Source: a virus. Taken from it: 54,141 nucleotides of DNA. The translations under genes were made by a program, and so were the position numbers. Below, piece after piece: positions 892-15,186 of this stretch (position 1 is its first letter; every line of letters starts with the position of its first letter). The stretch lies in the IMG/VR virus record IMGVR_UViG_3300035703_000124, positions 1 to 54,141 of that record. One strand, written 5' to 3'. The notes under the pieces were generated by a model. The model had not been told where the DNA came from. It did no database searches and saw only the letters and a program-made list of their open reading frames with translations.

Positions 892-1881
892 ATGGCACCT
901 ATTAAAAATACAAACCAAGGATTTATAGGATCTTTTATCTCCAGAGTTGGAATAAGCACACAAATATTTAATCGTCCAAGTTTAGTTGCAGTTGCTGCAA
1001 CATCATCTACGCCAAATATTTTTACACCAGGAAATGGATATCAATATCATATCTTTACGCAACCTGGAAGATTTTATGTCTTTAATCCTGGATATATTGA
1101 CTTTTGTATTGTAGGTGGTGGCGGCGCTGGAGGTGCTGGATCTGGTACTGGATCTCATGGGGGAGGTGGTGGTGCTGGTGGATTTGTTGAAAAGTATAAC
1201 ATACTATGTCCAACAGGATTTTATGATATTTGTGTAGGTGTTGGGGGAGCTGCCACTAACGCAATTCCAGCTAGTCCTATTTCTCCTCGTAGTGGAACTC
1301 CTTCTTTTGTTAGTGGACCTGTTGGGTTTACATCAATAACAGCAACAGGAGGTGGTGGAGGGGGAACTGCTCCAGCAGGATTTGCAACACCTGGAGGATC
1401 TGGTGGGGGTGGAGCATCACCTGGCGCGTTAGCAGGGGGTACACTTAAAAGTGGATTAGATAGAGAAGGATATGATGGAGGAAGGGGCGGTCCAACCATA
1501 TCAGGATCTGGTGGTTCTGCATCTATTCCAGGTAGAAATGGAAATGCTGATGCAGGAGTTCCTGGAGGTGGTGGATTAGCAGCATTTGGTGGAGATCCAG
1601 GTGTTCCTTCTGCTTTTGGAACTGCTAATCCGAGTCCATTGCCAGGAAGATGGTTTGCTGGAGGTGGTGGCGGTGTTCCTGGTGGATTTGGTGGACTTAC
1701 CCCTCCTGGTGTTAGTGCTGGAGGTGGTGGTGATGGTGGGGGAACAACTACTAGTGGAGGTGATGCTGGACAAAATACTGGTGCAGGTGGAGGTGGTGGT
1801 GGTGGTCCCGGGACTCAGGGTGGAGCAGGAGGTTCTGGTATAGTTCTTATACGGTATAAAAATATAAATCTAACATTTTAA
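892..1881 (+). CDS. Glycine-rich adhesin-like virion protein
   Basis: 329 residues. The order is: a unique N-terminal 40 residues, the motif TPGNGYQYHIFTQPGRFYVF near residue 45, a hydrophobic strand (DFCIVGGGG), about 230 residues of Gly-rich loops, and the C-terminal signature GGSGIVLIRY. It starts one base after the previous stop and lies 6 bases before the next paralogue, so the three genes look co-transcribed. About 60 bases encoding the TPGNGYQYH segment are almost identical to the following gene, and about 55 bases around 1636-1692 match the preceding gene, so it is a mosaic. Likely a tail fibre tip or other surface adhesin (inference). Confidence 0.75.
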   Translation: MAPIKNTNQGFIGSFISRVGISTQIFNRPSLVAVAATSSTPNIFTPGNGYQYHIFTQPGRFYVFNPGYIDFCIVGGGGAGGAGSGTGSHGGGGGAGGFVEKYNILCPTGFYDICVGVGGAATNAIPASPISPRSGTPSFVSGPVGFTSITATGGGGGGTAPAGFATPGGSGGGGASPGALAGGTLKSGLDREGYDGGRGGPTISGSGGSASIPGRNGNADAGVPGGGGLAAFGGDPGVPSAFGTANPSPLPGRWFAGGGGGVPGGFGGLTPPGVSAGGGGDGGGTTTSGGDAGQNTGAGGGGGGGPGTQGGAGGSGIVLIRYKNINLTF

Positions 1882-5086: not shown

Positions 5087-6142
5087 ATGTCTAGACTTAT
5101 TGCTGGAAGAATTGGATTTTCCGTAAATGGTGGAGGTTCTGGTGGAATTTTTAATTTTTTAACACAGTATGTTCTTAAAAAACAAGATTTTTGGGAAAAA
5201 ATTAATATAGTAGGAGGAACAGAAAGCACTCCTGGAAATGGATATAAGTATCATTTTTTTACTGGTAGTCAACCACTTGTAGTGTATAATGGTGGATCGG
5301 TAGATTATATTATTGTTGCTGGTGGTGCCGGGGGTGGAGACGGGAATGGTGCTTTTACCGATACTATGGGTGCTGGCGGCGGAGCAGGAGGATATAGAAC
5401 TGGAACTATAAATTTATTTGAAGGACAATATTATGTAATAATAGGATCTGGTGGATTTGGTCCAACTTCAAGTACTGCACCTAGTAATAATATTAATGGA
5501 AATGGATTTCCTTCAATATTGAGATATATTGGGAATATATCTGAACCATCATCTAATGTTTTTATTGACATAGAATCTACTGGTGGGGGTGCAGGTGGAT
5601 ATCATCCTGGCGGGATTAGTGGACGATCTGGAGGTTCTGGTGGAGGAGGTGCTCCCCCAAATGGAACAGGTGGAACAGGAAATACACCCACAACTTCTCC
5701 ATCGCAAGGAAATCCTGGAGGATCTGGCGTTGCATTTGCTGCTGGCGGTGGTGGTGGGTCTGGTGGATCTGGAAGAGGGGGATCAAATCCACCAGCAAAG
5801 GGAGGAAATGGTGGACTTGGTATTGCAGCATTTAATGCTGATTCTGGAATTCCAGCTTCTTATGGTGCTACTGGACCCTCTCCTGGTAGGTGGTTTGCTG
5901 GTGGAGGTGGTGGGGGTGGATCTACTACCGCAGGTTTTGGTGGTGTTGGACCTGGTGCAGGTCCCGGACCATTTGCGGGAGGAGGACCAGGTGGAAGACC
6001 TAGTGTAACTGCAGCCATTAGAAACGGAACAGCAGGAACGGTAAATACTGGTGGTGGTGGAGGAGGAGGTGCTGCTTCACCTACTGGTGGATCTGCTGGA
6101 AACGGAGGATCTGGTATAGTTATTATAAGATATCTTATTTAA
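5087..6142 (+). CDS. Glycine-rich adhesin-like virion protein
   Basis: 351 residues. The N-terminal head (MSRLIAGRIGFSVNGGG) is shared in pattern with the next gene. TPGNGYKYHFFTG appears near residue 47, then VDYIIVAGGAGG, a Gly-rich body with GPSPGRWFAGGGG, and a closing GGSGIVIIRYLI. About 50 bases near 5670-5720 (encoding GTGGTGNTPTTSPSQGNPGG) are nearly identical to the next gene, showing recent exchange or duplication. Likely tail fibre tip or host-recognition protein (inference from composition and repeats). Confidence 0.75.
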   Translation: MSRLIAGRIGFSVNGGGSGGIFNFLTQYVLKKQDFWEKINIVGGTESTPGNGYKYHFFTGSQPLVVYNGGSVDYIIVAGGAGGGDGNGAFTDTMGAGGGAGGYRTGTINLFEGQYYVIIGSGGFGPTSSTAPSNNINGNGFPSILRYIGNISEPSSNVFIDIESTGGGAGGYHPGGISGRSGGSGGGGAPPNGTGGTGNTPTTSPSQGNPGGSGVAFAAGGGGGSGGSGRGGSNPPAKGGNGGLGIAAFNADSGIPASYGATGPSPGRWFAGGGGGGGSTTAGFGGVGPGAGPGPFAGGGPGGRPSVTAAIRNGTAGTVNTGGGGGGGAASPTGGSAGNGGSGIVIIRYLI

Positions 6143-6154
6143 ATAAAATGTAAA

Positions 6155-7141
6155 ATGACAAAACATATAGGAAATAGAATTGGATTTGGAGTCAGTACTA
6201 GTTCTGATGGAGGTCTTTTTAACATTACCTCTCAATTTTTCATAAAAAAAGAATCAAGATGGGCATTTACTGCTGGAACATCTACTGGTGGTAGTCAAAC
6301 TCCAACAAATGGATTAGAACCTGGAAATGGATATAGATATCATTTTTTCACAGCAACTGGTCCATTTACTCTTTCTCAGGATACTTATGTTGACTATATG
6401 ATTGTTGGTGGCGGAGGCGCTGGTGGACGTAGTGCTCTTTTTACCGATACTGGTGGTGGTGGAGGTGGTGCTGGAGGATTTAGAACAGGTTCAAATTTAT
6501 TGTTAAAAACTGGTGCATATACTATTACAATTGGGGGTGGTGGTTCTGGACCTGGATTAACATCTGGAAGTTCATCACACATTACTGGATCAGTTGGATT
6601 CACTTCTATTACTTCAACTGGTGGTGGTAGAGGTGGATATTGGGGTCCTCCAAACGTTCCTGGTGTTAATGGTGGTTCTGGTGGTGGGGGAGGAGGTCCA
6701 TCTGGAACGGGTGGAACAGGAAATATACCCACAACTTCTCCATCGCAAGGAAATCCTGGAGGTTTAGGGAATTGGGCTGGCGGTGGCGGCGGAGGTGCAT
6801 TAGAGTCCGGTAGACGAGGTTCAGGACCTCCTGCTTCTATTGGTGGAGGAAGAGGAGGTTCTGGAGCGCAAGCATTTTTTGGAGATCCTGGCGTTCCACC
6901 TTCTTATGGTGCTACTGCACCCTCTCCTGGTAGGTGGTTTGCTGGTGGAGGTGGTGGAGGACCATTTGGCCCTGGTGGATTCGGTGGTGGTGGCAATGGT
7001 GGACCTTCTACACCTGGATCTGGAACTACAAATACTGGTGGTGGAGGAGGTGGAGCAAATAACCCTGCACCAACAGCAACATCTGGTGGATCTGGTGGAT
7101 CTGGTATTGTTATTATTCGTTATTTGATAAATCAATCTTAA
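6155..7141 (+). CDS. Glycine-rich adhesin-like virion protein
   Basis: 328 residues, pairing with the preceding gene through the head MTKHIGNRIGFGVS and the block GTGGTGNIPTTSPSQGNPGG. It has the family landmarks PGNGYRYHFFT, VDYMIVGGGG, GRWFAGGGGG and GGSGIVIIRYL. It also carries a roughly 30-base stretch (around 6882-6910) identical to the first gene of the window, so modules have moved between non-adjacent copies. Role in adsorption is inferred. Confidence 0.75.
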   Translation: MTKHIGNRIGFGVSTSSDGGLFNITSQFFIKKESRWAFTAGTSTGGSQTPTNGLEPGNGYRYHFFTATGPFTLSQDTYVDYMIVGGGGAGGRSALFTDTGGGGGGAGGFRTGSNLLLKTGAYTITIGGGGSGPGLTSGSSSHITGSVGFTSITSTGGGRGGYWGPPNVPGVNGGSGGGGGGPSGTGGTGNIPTTSPSQGNPGGLGNWAGGGGGGALESGRRGSGPPASIGGGRGGSGAQAFFGDPGVPPSYGATAPSPGRWFAGGGGGGPFGPGGFGGGGNGGPSTPGSGTTNTGGGGGGANNPAPTATSGGSGGSGIVIIRYLINQS

Positions 7142-9932: not shown

Positions 9933-10676
9933 ATGATATCATTTAATAATATTGGTCATATGGGACGTTTGGGAAATCAAATGTTCCAGTATGCTGGAGT
10001 CAAAGGAGTAGCAATTCATAAAGGATATTGGTATTCTGTACCTTCTAACACTTCTTTGAATCAGTGTTTTAAAATACCAGAAACATTATCTAACAACAAT
10101 AGCAGGATTGTTAATGTAGAAAGGTTTGAATTTGATGAGGAGTTCTTCAATAATTGCCCTGATGATGTTGACGTGTGTGGATATTTTCAATCAGAAAAAT
10201 ACTTTAAGCATATAGAGAATCAGATTAGACAAGACTTTATTTTTCATGATAGAATATTGAAAGAATGTTTATCTTATCGGAGTACCTTATCAGGCACTCA
10301 TTTAATATCACTACATATTAGAAGAAGTGATTATATTAGCGATCTAAATTTTGAGTGTCTTTCACTTGATTATTATTGGAACGCAGTAAAACTTCTACCA
10401 AACTTCCCAGTGATAGTTTTTAGTGATGATCTAGAATGGTGTAAAAAACAGTTCAGTCAAGATCCGTTTATTATCTCTCCATTTGAAGATCCTTTTTTTG
10501 ATCTTTGCTTAATGTCTCTTTGCGATTATCACATTATTGCCAACTCCTCATTCTCTTGGTGGGGATCTTGGTTATCAAATAGTAAGCAAACAATTGCTCC
10601 CAGAAAATGGTTTTCCGGTGAATTTTCAAACTGGAATACTAAAGATTTATATTTACCCGAATGGATTATAATTTAA
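9933..10676 (+). CDS. Alpha-1,2-fucosyltransferase-like, GT11 family
   Basis: 247 residues with the GT11 signatures: GRLGNQMFQYA (residues 11-21), HIRRSDY (128-134; the HxRRxD motif that binds GDP-fucose) and SSFSWWGSWL near residue 205. The family transfers L-fucose from GDP-fucose to galactose-containing glycans. Length is slightly short of the usual 270-300 residues but all three motifs are present. No fucose-synthesis genes are in this window, so the donor would come from the host or from elsewhere in the phage genome (inference). Confidence 0.85.
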   Translation: MISFNNIGHMGRLGNQMFQYAGVKGVAIHKGYWYSVPSNTSLNQCFKIPETLSNNNSRIVNVERFEFDEEFFNNCPDDVDVCGYFQSEKYFKHIENQIRQDFIFHDRILKECLSYRSTLSGTHLISLHIRRSDYISDLNFECLSLDYYWNAVKLLPNFPVIVFSDDLEWCKKQFSQDPFIISPFEDPFFDLCLMSLCDYHIIANSSFSWWGSWLSNSKQTIAPRKWFSGEFSNWNTKDLYLPEWIII

Positions 10677-10684
10677 AAAATACT

Positions 10685-11413
10685 ATGAATTTTTCTTCTG
10701 ATTTACATAATAAAGCAATTATTGATACTGGATATGAATATCGTGGAAGGTTTTCAAATTCTTATGTTTATACTGGATTTGTCGATAATTTCATGAAAAA
10801 AATTCATGAAAAAGAGTGGGATGGTCCAAAAGTTTATCTTGATATTGGATCTAGAGATTTAATGCAAACCATAGAGGTTGCACAGTATCATCCAAATACT
10901 AGATTTATTGCATTCGAACCTGTTCCTTGGCAATATCAGGTTTGTTATGAAAGAAGTTTGGAGTGGGATAATATCGAAGTTTATAATTATGCCATCTCTG
11001 ATAAGGAAGGACTTGCTGATTTTTGGCAATTAGATACAAACACGGGAGCATCATCATTGTTAGAACCAATGCATGATATTCCTGCTAGTAATAATATAAG
11101 TAAAAAGATTATAGTTGAATGTAAAAGACTTGATAATTTTCTTCCTACTATAGGAGTAAATTCTGTAGATTGTTTATGGATTGATACTCAAGGTACAGAA
11201 CTCAATGTCTTAAAAAGTTTAGGAAAGTATATTGACAATGTAATGTTTATACACACGGAGGCATCTCCCAAACCTTATTACAAAAATCAAAATATAAAAA
11301 GTGAGATTGAAACATTTTTATACATGAAAGGATTTGAAATGGAATTTACATCTTGTCCAGGACATCCATATGGAGAAGGAGATATAATTGCATCAAGGAG
11401 AAATATAAAGTGA
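10685..11413 (+). CDS. FkbM-family methyltransferase
   Basis: 242 residues from ATG 10685; ATG 10661 would overlap the preceding gene. SAM-binding motif I is KVYLDIGSRD, the acidic loop is FIAFEPVPWQY, and the FkbM hallmarks CLWIDTQGTELNVLKSLG and VMFIHTEA follow. FkbM enzymes O-methylate sugars or polyketides using S-adenosylmethionine. In this cassette it probably methylates a glycan. It overlaps the next gene by 4 bases at GTGA. Confidence 0.75.
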   Translation: MNFSSDLHNKAIIDTGYEYRGRFSNSYVYTGFVDNFMKKIHEKEWDGPKVYLDIGSRDLMQTIEVAQYHPNTRFIAFEPVPWQYQVCYERSLEWDNIEVYNYAISDKEGLADFWQLDTNTGASSLLEPMHDIPASNNISKKIIVECKRLDNFLPTIGVNSVDCLWIDTQGTELNVLKSLGKYIDNVMFIHTEASPKPYYKNQNIKSEIETFLYMKGFEMEFTSCPGHPYGEGDIIASRRNIK

Positions 11414-12321
11414 AAATTTTATATGTTTATAATTTTGCTTACTTAGATTATCAATCTGATACTGTTTATCATGGTTTGATTGATAGTGGTATGGATGTTT
11501 ATGAAACTCATTATCCATCATATATGTTAAATGGATTTGTCTTTGATAAGCAATCTATGTATGGAGATGTTTGGCAAGATATCTATGGAGGACTGCCAGG
11601 AACAACTTTTACTCTATATGGTAAATTAGATTATACTCCTAAAGTTGAATCTGGAGAAATTATCATTGATAAGATTAAATCAAAATTTTATGATATTGTA
11701 ATTTATGGATGTGTTTATGATCATGATGGAATGCCAAGAAGAAAATGTTTAGATTACCTTGATGAAGTAATTAAATATTATTCTAAACATGAAATTCATT
11801 TTATTGATGGATCTGATAATTCTTGGAATTATGCCCACTCTAATGGGTTAGCACCATATGGGACTATATGGAAAACTCAGTTGGAAAGTATTGGTGCAGG
11901 GAATCCAATTTGTTTTGGTATTCCTGAATCGCAATTAATTAAATCAAATCCAAAAAAAGAAAAATTATTTGCGGATATTATTCCAGGAATTAAAAAAACA
12001 TATGTTTACTCTGATGAAGAATCATATTATAATGATTATGCAAAATCTTATTATGGGATGACTTGGAAAAAAGGGCAGTGGAATTGTATGAGGCATCTTG
12101 AAATTCTTGCAAATAAGTGTATTCCATATTTTCCAGATATTGAAGATTGCCCTCCTTTTGTGATGATGGATTTCCCGAAGGAGGTATTTAGAGAAACTAA
12201 TAAATACGCTAGAAAGTATGAAATTCATCCAAATTATGAATGGATTAATGATTATATTTTTGATTATACTAAAAATAATTTGACCACTAAGAAAATTGTT
12301 GAGAGGTTTTTTAGAAAATGA
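11410..12321 (+). CDS. Putative glycosyltransferase, GT-B-like
   Basis: 303 residues from GTG 11410, which overlaps the upstream stop (GTGA). The sequence opens with MKILYVYNFAYLDYQSD and contains the C-terminal pattern YGMTWKKGQWNCMRHLEILANKCIPYFPDIEDCPP, which resembles the donor-binding end of GT-B glycosyltransferases (a conserved region around an 'EilA.gciP' motif). An HFIDGSDNSWN segment lies mid-protein. Specific family not recognised. Coupled to the next methyltransferase gene by a 4-base overlap. Confidence 0.55.
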   Translation: MKILYVYNFAYLDYQSDTVYHGLIDSGMDVYETHYPSYMLNGFVFDKQSMYGDVWQDIYGGLPGTTFTLYGKLDYTPKVESGEIIIDKIKSKFYDIVIYGCVYDHDGMPRRKCLDYLDEVIKYYSKHEIHFIDGSDNSWNYAHSNGLAPYGTIWKTQLESIGAGNPICFGIPESQLIKSNPKKEKLFADIIPGIKKTYVYSDEESYYNDYAKSYYGMTWKKGQWNCMRHLEILANKCIPYFPDIEDCPPFVMMDFPKEVFRETNKYARKYEIHPNYEWINDYIFDYTKNNLTTKKIVERFFRK

Positions 12322-12920
12322 AAGTCGTTCAAATAGGGACAAATAGAGCAAATGATGATCTTTCAAACTATTTGAAATCTAACTGCAAAAATAATTTTAA
12401 CAAGTTAAATTTTGGATTATTTGTTGAAGCAAATAGTATTCATATTAATGACATCAAAAATTGCTATTCAGATTATGAAAATATTTTTGTCGAAAACGTA
12501 GCAATAAAATCTCCATTTCAAACTGGAGATGAACTTGAAATTTTTTACAATACTCTTGATGTTAATGGAGAAATTTCATCGTGCAAATATGATCACGTAT
12601 ATACTCATACAATATGGTGTCCAGAAATTTGCCATGGAGAAATTAAATCATTCAAGGTTCCCTGCATATCACTAGAAACTTTGTTGGACAAATATAAAAT
12701 TTCCTATTTGGATTGGCTTTTGCTGGATGTTGAGGGAATAGATGCGGAACTTTTATTGACTTTTAATTGGAAAAAATATGAAATTAAAAAAATAGAATTT
12801 GAACATTTACATCTTGGAGATTATTCTTATACCATCGAACATATGTTGATTGGTATGGGATATAAAAGAGTGGATTCTTTAAGTCAAAATGATTGGGCTT
12901 TTGAAAATAAAAATGAATGA
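12318..12920 (+). CDS. Small FkbM-like methyltransferase
   Basis: 200 residues beginning MKVVQIGTNRANDD, which may stand in for the SAM-binding glycine motif. FVEANSIHI occupies the acidic-loop position. LDWLLLDVEGIDAELLLTFNW is the FkbM C-terminal signature, and IEFEHLHL follows. It is shorter than typical FkbM domains, with a reduced N-terminus. It overlaps both neighbours by 4 bases (ATGA), so it belongs to the same translational unit. Probably acts on a sugar; activity is uncertain because motif I is atypical. Confidence 0.6.
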   Translation: MKVVQIGTNRANDDLSNYLKSNCKNNFNKLNFGLFVEANSIHINDIKNCYSDYENIFVENVAIKSPFQTGDELEIFYNTLDVNGEISSCKYDHVYTHTIWCPEICHGEIKSFKVPCISLETLLDKYKISYLDWLLLDVEGIDAELLLTFNWKKYEIKKIEFEHLHLGDYSYTIEHMLIGMGYKRVDSLSQNDWAFENKNE

Positions 12921-13648
12921 ATATAATAATTCCAATGGCAGGTGAGGGAACAAGATTTCCTAGAGACACTTATAAAATTCCAAAACCTTTGATTGACATT
13001 AAAGGGATTCCAATGATTCAAAGAGCAATTAACTCTCTTGGATTGAATGGGACTTATCATTTTGTAATCAGAAAAGATAGTTATTATGATCAGGTTTGCA
13101 CATTACTTCATAAAATATTATTAGATCCAAAAATTATAAGTGTAGAAGAAACTACAGAGGGACCTGCAGCAAGTTGTCTTCTCTTTAAAGATTTTATTAA
13201 TGACGAAGAAGAACTTGTGATTGCAAACTGTGATCAGATTATGTGGTGGGATCCAAATTTATTTCTTAATACTGCACGTTATTATAAGTATGATGGTCTT
13301 ATTGTGACCTATTCAACCACGACTCCTAAAAACAGTTATGCAAGAATCGATCAACAAGGATTTGTTCAAGAAGTTAAAGAGAAAGAAGTGATTAGTGATA
13401 TATCTTTAAACGGAATTCATTATTGGAGAAAGGGAAAATACTTTGTGCAAAGTGCAGAAGATATGATAAAATGTAATGATAGAGCACCCAATGGTGAATT
13501 TTATGTAGGACCCTCTTATAACCATATGATTAAACGTGGACTTAAGGTTGGAGTACATCACATCCCAAATTATCAGCATATCCCAGTTGGAGTTCCAGAG
13601 GATTTGAATTCATTTCTAGAAAAGTATGAACGTAACAAAAATTACTGA
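12917..13648 (+). CDS. Sugar-phosphate nucleotidyltransferase
   Basis: 243 residues. The nucleotide-binding signature is at residues 9-14 (GEGTRF) followed by the KPL motif at 23-25. The metal-binding aspartate is D106 in ANCDQIMWW, and the sugar-site segment NGIHYW appears near residue 170. These define the NTP-transferase family that makes NDP-sugars or related activated compounds from a phosphate ester and NTP. Which nucleotide and sugar cannot be told by eye. It overlaps the cupin gene by 23 bases and sits two genes before the RuBisCO-like protein, so it may activate the product of that enzyme (inference). Confidence 0.8.
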   Translation: MNIIIPMAGEGTRFPRDTYKIPKPLIDIKGIPMIQRAINSLGLNGTYHFVIRKDSYYDQVCTLLHKILLDPKIISVEETTEGPAASCLLFKDFINDEEELVIANCDQIMWWDPNLFLNTARYYKYDGLIVTYSTTTPKNSYARIDQQGFVQEVKEKEVISDISLNGIHYWRKGKYFVQSAEDMIKCNDRAPNGEFYVGPSYNHMIKRGLKVGVHHIPNYQHIPVGVPEDLNSFLEKYERNKNY

Positions 13649-13946
13649 TTATGTGAGAGGTTGGTTTATTGGAAACTTTGAACCATCTCTTTTGAAAACA
13701 CCTGACTTTGAGGTAGGATTACTATCACATAAGAAAGGTGAACATTGGGCACCGCATTATCATAAAGAAAGTGTAGAATATAATGTTCTTGTTTCTGGAA
13801 AAATGGTAGTTCAAGGAAAGGAACTGAATAGTGGAGATGTATTTGTATTAGATAAGAGAGAAGTTGCTGATCCAATTTTTCTAGAAGACTGTACATTAGT
13901 CGTCGTTAAAGTTCCTTCTATTCCTTCTGATAAGTTTGAGGTTTGA
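13626..13946 (+). CDS. Single-domain cupin
   Basis: 106 residues. The cupin metal motif is visible as H44-x-H46-x4-E51-x6-G58 (HYHKESVEYNVLVSG), followed by the second motif region LNSGDVFVLDKREVADP. Single-domain cupins act as isomerases, epimerases, dioxygenases or sensors; the exact reaction is unknown. It is wedged between the nucleotidyltransferase (23-base overlap) and the RuBisCO-like gene (one-base gap), so a role in the same small-molecule pathway is likely. Confidence 0.75.
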   Translation: MNVTKITDYVRGWFIGNFEPSLLKTPDFEVGLLSHKKGEHWAPHYHKESVEYNVLVSGKMVVQGKELNSGDVFVLDKREVADPIFLEDCTLVVVKVPSIPSDKFEV

Positions 13947-13947
13947 A

Positions 13948-15186
13948 ATGAAATTCTTCAGAGAATTAACTGATCAAGAAAGAGATCGTTGTGTTGTTGC
14001 AACGTATTATATTGAATCCTATAAAGAAGTTGGGACACTTAGAGATGCTGCATGGAATCTTGCGATTGGACAAAGTGTAGGTAATCCAAAAGTTCGTAAT
14101 CGCTGGGAGAGTGATGAACTGTTTGAACTTGCATCTTGCATCGTCTATGCTGATGAAGATGAACTTTCACAACTCACAGAAGGTGTGGTAAAGATTGGTT
14201 TCCCTAAAGTGAATACTGATTGGGAAGGCGATGGAATCTCACACCTTCTCTGCCAACTAATGGGTGGTCAACTGGACATTGATGTTTTCAAAGTTTGCAG
14301 ACTGCAAAAGTTGGATTTTCCTTCTGATGTTGAAGCATCATTCATTGGACCTAAAAATGGTATTGATGGTATTCGTAAGTTTGTCAATCGTTACGACAAG
14401 CCTCTTTCTGGTGCGATTGTAAAACCAAAGACTGGAATCTCCCCACAAACTCTTTCTGAAATGGTGAAAGAACTTCTTGATGGTGGTGTAGACTTTATTA
14501 AAGAAGATGAGATTCTTTCTAATCCTTCATTCTGCCGTCTTGAAGATCGTGTGGAATTGATTTCTAATATTGTCAATAACTGTGGTCGTAATGTAATCTA
14601 TGCATTCTGTATTAATGGTGATCACCATACCATTCTTGATCGTGCTAAGTTTGTTTCTGATAATGGTGGAAATGGTATTCATATTAATTTTTGGTCTGGT
14701 CTTGGGGTTTATAACTCTGTTAGAAAGATGGACCTACCACTGTTTATCCATTATCAAAAAAGTGGGGACAAAATTCTTACGGATAAACGCCACTCATTTG
14801 GAATAGATTGGGACGTTCTTTGTGACCTTGCTGGTCTCTGCGGTGTAGATACGATTCACGCTGGAATGTGGGGTGGATACTTGAGTGATGATGAAAATGA
14901 ACTTTGCCAAACTATGGAAATACTTCATAATCGTAATGTTCTTCCAGCATTGAGTTGTGGGATGCATCCTGGCATCGTCAACACGACTGCAGAGAAGTTT
15001 GGTACAGACTTCCTCGCCAACTGCGGAGGTGCCGTACACGGGCACCCAGGGGGCACTCTGGCGGGTGCTCTGGCAATGCGTCAAGCAATTGATAAAACTC
15101 CTGGAGCAGAGTTTCGTGCCGCTATTGATAAGTGGGGATATGAAACTGGGGGAGGTTCTTTACCAGAATGGGTTTTAGATTTTTGA
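13948..15186 (+). CDS. RuBisCO-like protein (form IV-like RuBisCO large-subunit superfamily)
   Basis: 412 residues from ATG 13948, one base after the cupin stop; an upstream TTG at 13936 is less likely. The N-terminal ferredoxin-like domain is followed by a barrel with GAIVKPKTGIS (K159/K161), the metal-site motif GGVDFIKEDE (carbamate-type K185, D187, E188), H268, H304 in DTIHAG, S336 in LPALSCG, and phosphate-loop residues in CGGAVHGHPGG. By-eye comparison shows loss of carboxylase residues: loop-6 Lys is Tyr (GGYLSDD), the Arg after H268 is Tyr, and the N-terminal Glu/Thr/Trp and Asn contributions are absent. It is therefore probably not a CO2-fixing RuBisCO but an enolase, isomerase or decarboxylase-type RLP. 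DNA here is richer in C and G than in the flanking glycosyltransferase genes, suggesting separate acquisition. Confidence 0.9.
   Translation: MKFFRELTDQERDRCVVATYYIESYKEVGTLRDAAWNLAIGQSVGNPKVRNRWESDELFELASCIVYADEDELSQLTEGVVKIGFPKVNTDWEGDGISHLLCQLMGGQLDIDVFKVCRLQKLDFPSDVEASFIGPKNGIDGIRKFVNRYDKPLSGAIVKPKTGISPQTLSEMVKELLDGGVDFIKEDEILSNPSFCRLEDRVELISNIVNNCGRNVIYAFCINGDHHTILDRAKFVSDNGGNGIHINFWSGLGVYNSVRKMDLPLFIHYQKSGDKILTDKRHSFGIDWDVLCDLAGLCGVDTIHAGMWGGYLSDDENELCQTMEILHNRNVLPALSCGMHPGIVNTTAEKFGTDFLANCGGAVHGHPGGTLAGALAMRQAIDKTPGAEFRAAIDKWGYETGGGSLPEWVLDF

Follow-up and report, generated by a model that had tools for sequence, protein, structure and literature searches.

RuBisCO ranks among the most studied enzymes of carbon metabolism. 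Many clades of its homologs, the RuBisCO-like proteins (RLPs), still await a function. Described members of the superfamily with which we compare the protein studied here include form III RuBisCO, the DK-MTP-1-P enolase MtnW and the 3-oxo-isoapionate-4-phosphate decarboxylase OiaX. Additional RuBisCO homologs from Global Ocean Sampling (GOS) data are given as unassigned in PMC1821046, and a form IV subgroup is named “IV-GOS” in PMC10173188. Viruses can carry such genes as well: one viral rbcL showed carboxylase activity upon co-expression with rbcS (PMC12615777), and in a landfill survey one viral copy fell into an “RbcL-like” cluster distinct from the earlier reported viral RbcL (PMC12607003). 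In the open-licence papers to which our literature search was confined, we found nothing that links RLPs to phage glycans, to a nucleotidyltransferase partnership or to a glycan role.

Here we describe an RLP gene encoded on a viral DNA stretch of 54,141 nucleotides (IMG/VR record IMGVR_UViG_3300035703_000124), which was analyzed as a whole and is called the window in the following. As originally predicted, the gene sits in a glycan cassette of a T4-like phage: the record encodes a gp5-type baseplate hub/lysozyme, a gp32-type ssDNA-binding protein and a tail-tube cap, and homologs of the cassette genes (Table 1) are carried by Synechococcus phages. Three related phrog_2295 proteins of unknown function are encoded upstream of the cassette. 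The RLP ORF is intact and starts with an ATG at position 13948, with an in-frame TTG at 13936 as an alternative start. Its product had been taken for a full-length member of the RuBisCO superfamily, which holds up well: PF00016 (RuBisCO_large) matches it in a Pfam search with E 2.2e-43 (149 bits; cut-off 30), and an AlphaFold2 model calculated from an alignment of 36 relatives reaches a mean pLDDT of 93.4 and a pTM of 0.91, with type III RuBisCO 3a12 as its first Foldseek match in the PDB (E 1.4e-31, TM 0.85). The top NCBIfam match is rubisco_III at 200 bits vs. a cut-off of 497, and all other NCBIfam models of RuBisCO or RLPs that match the protein stay far under their own cut-offs. Compared to its nearest relative, the gene shows a dN of 0.028 and a dS of 0.44 (dN/dS ~0.06) and is under purifying selection.

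Table 1. Coordinates of the RLP gene, its neighbors in the window and related features at other loci (positions without a locus prefix refer to the window).
Feature	Position	Strand	Basis
phrog_2295 protein	892-1881		
phrog_2295 protein	5087-6142		
phrog_2295 protein	6155-7141		
Glycosyltransferase family 11, glycan cassette	9933..10676	+	
FkbM-type methyltransferase, glycan cassette	10661..11413	+	Pfam
FkbM-type methyltransferase, glycan cassette	12318..12920	+	Pfam
NTP-transferase (predicted sugar- or polyol-phosphate nucleotidyltransferase)	12917..13648	+	PF00483 E 1e-8; RLP adjacency
Small cupin-like protein	13626..13946	+	weak PF12973 match; HxH motif by eye
RLP, 412 aa, non-carboxylating by residues	13948..15186	+	Pfam, NCBIfam, model, alignment, tree
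Small putative GDPD-fold protein, 154 aa	15188..15652	+	predicted structure, invariant residues
Multi-domain glycosyltransferase (GT2 / GT7C / GT25) + FkbM methyltransferase, 995 aa	15657..18644	+	
Legionella LicD gene	L104:6690-7538	-	beside the RLP-NTP pair
Legionella LicD gene	L105:6937-7773	-	beside the RLP-NTP pair
Legionella LicD gene	L106:6815-7663	-	beside the RLP-NTP pair
NTP-transferase homolog fused to DHBP synthase, phage S-SKS1	L084:5001-6428		

To assess the active site, we compared a 36-member alignment of the RLP and its clade with the reference forms, using spinach numbering throughout. K175, K177, K201, D203 and E204 are retained in all 36 members. These include the metal site (K185/D187/E188 in the window protein) and the KPK lysines (K159/K161), both of which had been read correctly from the single sequence and are invariant in the clade; the carbamate lysine aligns properly, its misalignment having been named beforehand as an argument against the assignment. 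S379, G381 and the first glycine of the phosphate loop are likewise retained, as is H327 in 32/36 members, and none of the IV-Photo, OiaX-like and MtnW-like references that we sampled has K177. Other positions carry replacements that are fixed or nearly so: H294 is Gln and K334 is Tyr in every member (the latter being the foreseen loop-6 tyrosine, Y311), R295 is Lys in 33/36, and T65 and N123 have become Asn and Gly throughout, with H294 being retained in all other groups sampled. The E60 column reads as a fixed Gly that Gln42 adjoins, and the alignment shows the loss of E60, T65 and W66 that had been anticipated as a missing N-terminal Glu/Thr/Trp set. One detail needs correction, i.e., that a tyrosine replaces the arginine after the active-site histidine. 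This was a register error, since I-H268-Y-Q270-K271-S aligns with I-H-x-H294-R295-A such that H268 pairs with the histidine two positions before H294, and it is Gln and Lys that occupy the H294 and R295 columns.

In the RuBisCO mechanism, the residue set kept in the clade supports enolization, and K334, H294, N123 and E60 serve CO2 addition, hydration and cleavage. With the former set kept and the latter lost, the pattern would favor a tautomerase, isomerase or epimerase reaction. The carboxylase set of forms I, II and III was tried and rejected for this protein, its E60/T65/N123/H294/K334 columns reading Gly, Asn, Gly, Gln and Tyr. Because all five are replaced and fixed across the clade, the original view of a non-carboxylating RLP is well founded as far as residues can tell, and under the broad definition of a form IV RLP, i.e., a RuBisCO homolog without carboxylase residues, the protein classes as one on its sequence.

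In a maximum-likelihood tree of 65 sequences with six reference groups, a branch that has a support of 100/100 and recurs in 100% of 200 bootstrap trees separates the clade from forms I, II and III as well as from the IV-Photo (Chlorobi-type, a label that we inferred for this reference set), OiaX-like and MtnW-like groups. The expected position outside the carboxylase forms and outside MtnW and OiaX is thus borne out by the tree and, for the latter two, also by bit scores far under the curated cut-offs. Against the clade profile, cellular members score 355-664 bits and the best of all references and non-members 240. We therefore regard these sequences as what appears to be a new RLP clade that is neither MtnW nor OiaX nor a carboxylase. 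In a quick tree, the MtnW-like group is nearest to the clade with a weak support of 67, and a SAR11 copy nests among viral members, which suggests virus-host exchange. A sequence from the archaeal sample that had been labelled MtnW-like (L377) forms a long branch inside form III in the quick tree, so this label is doubtful; the result for the clade is unaffected. Low-scoring Bacteroidota proteins matching PF00016 were rejected as clade members, with no more than 114 bits to the clade profile, no NTP-transferase partner and an MtnW-like grouping of those sampled. About one in ten of the sampled Bacteroidota carries divergent RLPs of ~370-425 aa (L360-L374, L378-L379); those sampled group with MtnW-like sequences, and an NTP-transferase partner is absent.

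The clade is common in IMG/VR, where two scans returned 242 and 301 confirmed stretches, and rare and sporadic in cells. A tblastn search with the RLP across the 50,697 phages of INPHARED gave no match, PHROGs holds no family for it, and a fold search of BFVD found no viral protein with a RuBisCO fold, the best TM to the query being 0.38 among the 50 matches listed. One scan of GTDB genomes yielded 23 clade loci in SAR11, Legionella nautarum, L. maceachernii, L. drozanskii and Azospirillum oleiclasticum as well as in Elusimicrobia, Bacteroidota, Verrucomicrobia, Patescibacteria and DPANN archaea. Within individual lineages, the clade is present in 4/22 genomes of a Legionella genus sample and in 2/197 genomes of a SAR11 family sample (the family of genome G004, seed included).

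The original prediction saw no pathway around the RLP gene, and here our results differ. The genes for the NTP-transferase and the cupin lie directly upstream and that of the 154-aa protein directly downstream, and this conserved nucleotidyltransferase/cupin/GDPD-like module recurs in bacteria and archaea. When genes within 1.5 kb of the RLP are counted at 51 non-redundant viral loci, the NTP-transferase is found at 47, the cupin at 39 and the 154-aa protein at 37 of them, and at least 17 of 21 cellular loci, both bacterial and archaeal, have the NTP-transferase. Azospirillum adds an 18th cellular locus with the full module in an order different from the window (GDPD-RLP-cupin-NTP), which had escaped the count only through an over-long ORF call overlapping the RLP. 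Most other loci without an NTP-transferase in this range are short or at the end of a contig, and at two viral ones the gene lies slightly farther away. The remainder of the glycan cassette varies between viruses; the RLP and NTP-transferase are constant, and the cupin is mostly so. Since pathway context does exist, the observation is more interesting than first described. At six SAR11 loci (L094-L097, L099 and L100), the RLP is flanked by two NTP-transferases, the upstream one being divergent and without a Pfam match in the tested L099. On one viral contig (L216), no RLP, cupin or GDPD-like gene was recognized near an NTP-transferase of the window type (58% identical).

A Pfam search with the 154-aa protein gave no match, neither to PI-PLC nor to GDPD, and we therefore predicted its structure instead. 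The model (pLDDT 95.6) finds glycerophosphodiester phosphodiesterases as its best Foldseek matches (1zcc; prob 1.00, TM 0.53, E 3e-3), and H6, R7, E35, D37 and H49 are invariant in the family. This putative GDPD-fold family of ~150 aa (alignment A4), for which there is no Pfam model, is widespread in viruses and often adjoins NTP-transferases.

Hints at the substrate come from homologs of the NTP-transferase, for which the closest solved chain is 4evw with a title that names no substrate, and from LicD. In phages without the RLP, these homologs are fused to other sugar-phosphate enzymes. A fusion to DHBP synthase, whose substrate is ribulose-5-phosphate, occurs in S-SKS1 and on 10 IMG/VR contigs (L199-L208) and suggests that a C4 keto-phosphate may be nucleotidylated. 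Its neighbors are a HAD, a transaldolase-family protein and a protein that weakly matches an APH kinase. A fusion to RpiB is found in phage Bellamy and on one IMG/VR contig, where the neighbors are the cupin known from RLP loci, a PfkB-like protein and a HAD that looks KdsC-like by eye. The commonest fusion partner, a HAD domain, gives no indication of a pentose, and on two IMG/VR contigs (L225 and L227) a PMM-like HAD lies between the cupin and GDPD-like genes, i.e., in the position of the RLP in the window. Furthermore, in three Legionella species a LicD-family gene lies in divergent orientation beside the RLP-NTP pair, with PF04991 matching the two tested at E 1e-42 and 6e-44; a LicD motif search of 80 viral RLP loci and of viral NTP loci found none. 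LicD proteins move phospho-groups from CDP conjugates, and bacterial CDP-ribitol is made from ribitol-5-P derived from ribulose-5-P (PMC4873967). A pentulose substrate is the weakest step in our proposal because it builds on fusion partners of NTP-transferase homologs rather than of the RLP itself, with the commonest one (HAD) being uninformative.

The location of the RLP beside the same sugar-activating gene across hundreds of viruses and a few bacterial and archaeal genomes and the loss of its carboxylation residues make it most likely that the protein serves an unusual surface-glycan sugar and not carbon fixation. We infer that the RLP, dependent on Mg and the carbamate, would deprotonate a keto-sugar phosphate next to its ketone, our best guess being a ketose phosphate of five or four carbons that is close to ribulose-5-phosphate, and that the enediolate would be re-protonated elsewhere to give an isomer or epimer. 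The adjacent NTP-transferase would convert this product into an activated NDP derivative, probably a CDP one, and glycosyltransferases, or LicD-type phosphotransferases in Legionella, would attach the unit to a glycan of the virion or cell. Taken as a whole, this model of a keto-sugar phosphate isomerase or epimerase feeding nucleotide activation for glycan decoration seems reasonably probable to us. That this mostly viral branch of the RuBisCO superfamily supplies the precursor for a nucleotide-activated glycan unit through a new RLP reaction, the isomerization or epimerization of a keto-sugar phosphate in a Gln/Lys/Tyr site, and constitutes the first RLP in glycan biosynthesis has, in our view, an even chance of being true.

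The activated unit could also arise if the RLP shortened a sugar acid or a keto-polyol phosphate, acting as a decarboxylase or otherwise cleaving a C-C bond. OiaX-like RLPs have the same fold and, as the clade does, mostly keep H327 and S379; a C4 keto-phosphate formed by carbon loss from ribulose-5-P may suit the NTP-transferase family, given the DHBP synthase fusions; and PMC10173188 mentions a form IV oxygenase (3-keto-ribitol-bisphosphate). However, H294, R295 and K334 are present in all OiaX-like references and replaced by Gln, Lys and Tyr in the clade, the OiaX model (NF042437) gives the RLP 152.7 bits with a cut-off of 700, and the tree separates the OiaX-like group from the clade, so we consider such a reaction rather unlikely. 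A place in methionine salvage, be it as an MtnW-type enolase or as a 5-methylthioribulose-1-P isomerase like in R. rubrum, would agree with the MtnW-like group being nearest in the quick tree at its weak support, but the MtnW models TIGR03332 and NF007095 reach only 127.7 vs. 513.6 and 165.6 vs. 409 bits, the clade has the K177 that all sampled form IV references lack and has lost the H294 that they keep, and no methionine-salvage partner was recognized near the RLP among its nucleotidyltransferase and glycan neighbors. We thus find this role very improbable.

Even less credible is a divergent working RuBisCO for phage carbon fixation, i.e., an rbcL auxiliary metabolic gene (AMG), though the carbon-fixation AMGs described in the literature include viral rbcL genes (PMC12615777, PMC8506154), the best NCBIfam match is rubisco_III and all five KPK and metal-site residues are present: the fixed replacement of E60, T65, N123, H294 and K334 and a partner gene that encodes a nucleotidyltransferase in a glycan cassette speak against it. 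The tight genetic link to the NTP-transferase would also fit a complex in which the RLP is catalytically inert and acts as scaffold or regulator of the nucleotidyltransferase, but the positions that vary least across viruses, bacteria and archaea include its catalytic and metal residues, a constraint that such a scaffold would not need, and we give this option very little weight.

The near-constant partner gene narrows the role of the clade to sugar-nucleotide synthesis. The clade is common in uncultured viruses and has a fixed, unusual pattern of active-site substitutions, and its cultured hosts, three Legionella species and Azospirillum oleiclasticum, make it testable. Because its best curated-model match is type III RuBisCO, annotation pipelines may call the gene rbcL and present it as evidence of phage carbon fixation; viral “rbcL” AMG calls need to be re-checked against this clade.

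Among the known systems, form III RuBisCO (Thermococcus kodakarensis 3a12) resembles the RLP in its fold (TM 0.85, 26-27% identity) and in K175, K177, K201, D203, E204, S379, G381 and mostly H327, yet the clade has replaced E60, T65, N123, H294, R295 and K334, stands apart in the tree and has other neighbors. OiaX shares the carbamate metal site and works on a sugar phosphate, but in its relatives H294, R295 and K334 are retained and K177 is missing, opposite to our clade, and on the plasmids viewed the gene that follows codes for a four-carbon acid sugar kinase or an aldo/keto reductase instead of an NTP-transferase. MtnW and MtnW-like proteins have the RLP fold with K175, K201 and D203, and enolizing chemistry is the common ground that we propose; they differ by Ser or Arg at the K334 position, the loss of K177 and a kept H294, and their sister position is weakly supported. 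The GOS-only and IV-GOS branches are similar in being marine and unassigned, and our clade may overlap with IV-GOS; the excerpted texts of PMC1821046 and PMC10173188 report no link to viruses or nucleotidyltransferases. Finally, the CDP-ribitol pathway (TarI/ISPD, a ribulose-5-P reductase and a LicD/FKRP-type transferase) likewise links a ketopentose-phosphate enzyme to a nucleotidyltransferase, and LicD is found near the RLP in Legionella. In our system, however, an RLP would take the place of the reductase, and the NTP-transferase is RmlA/MobA-like with only weak similarity to IspD.
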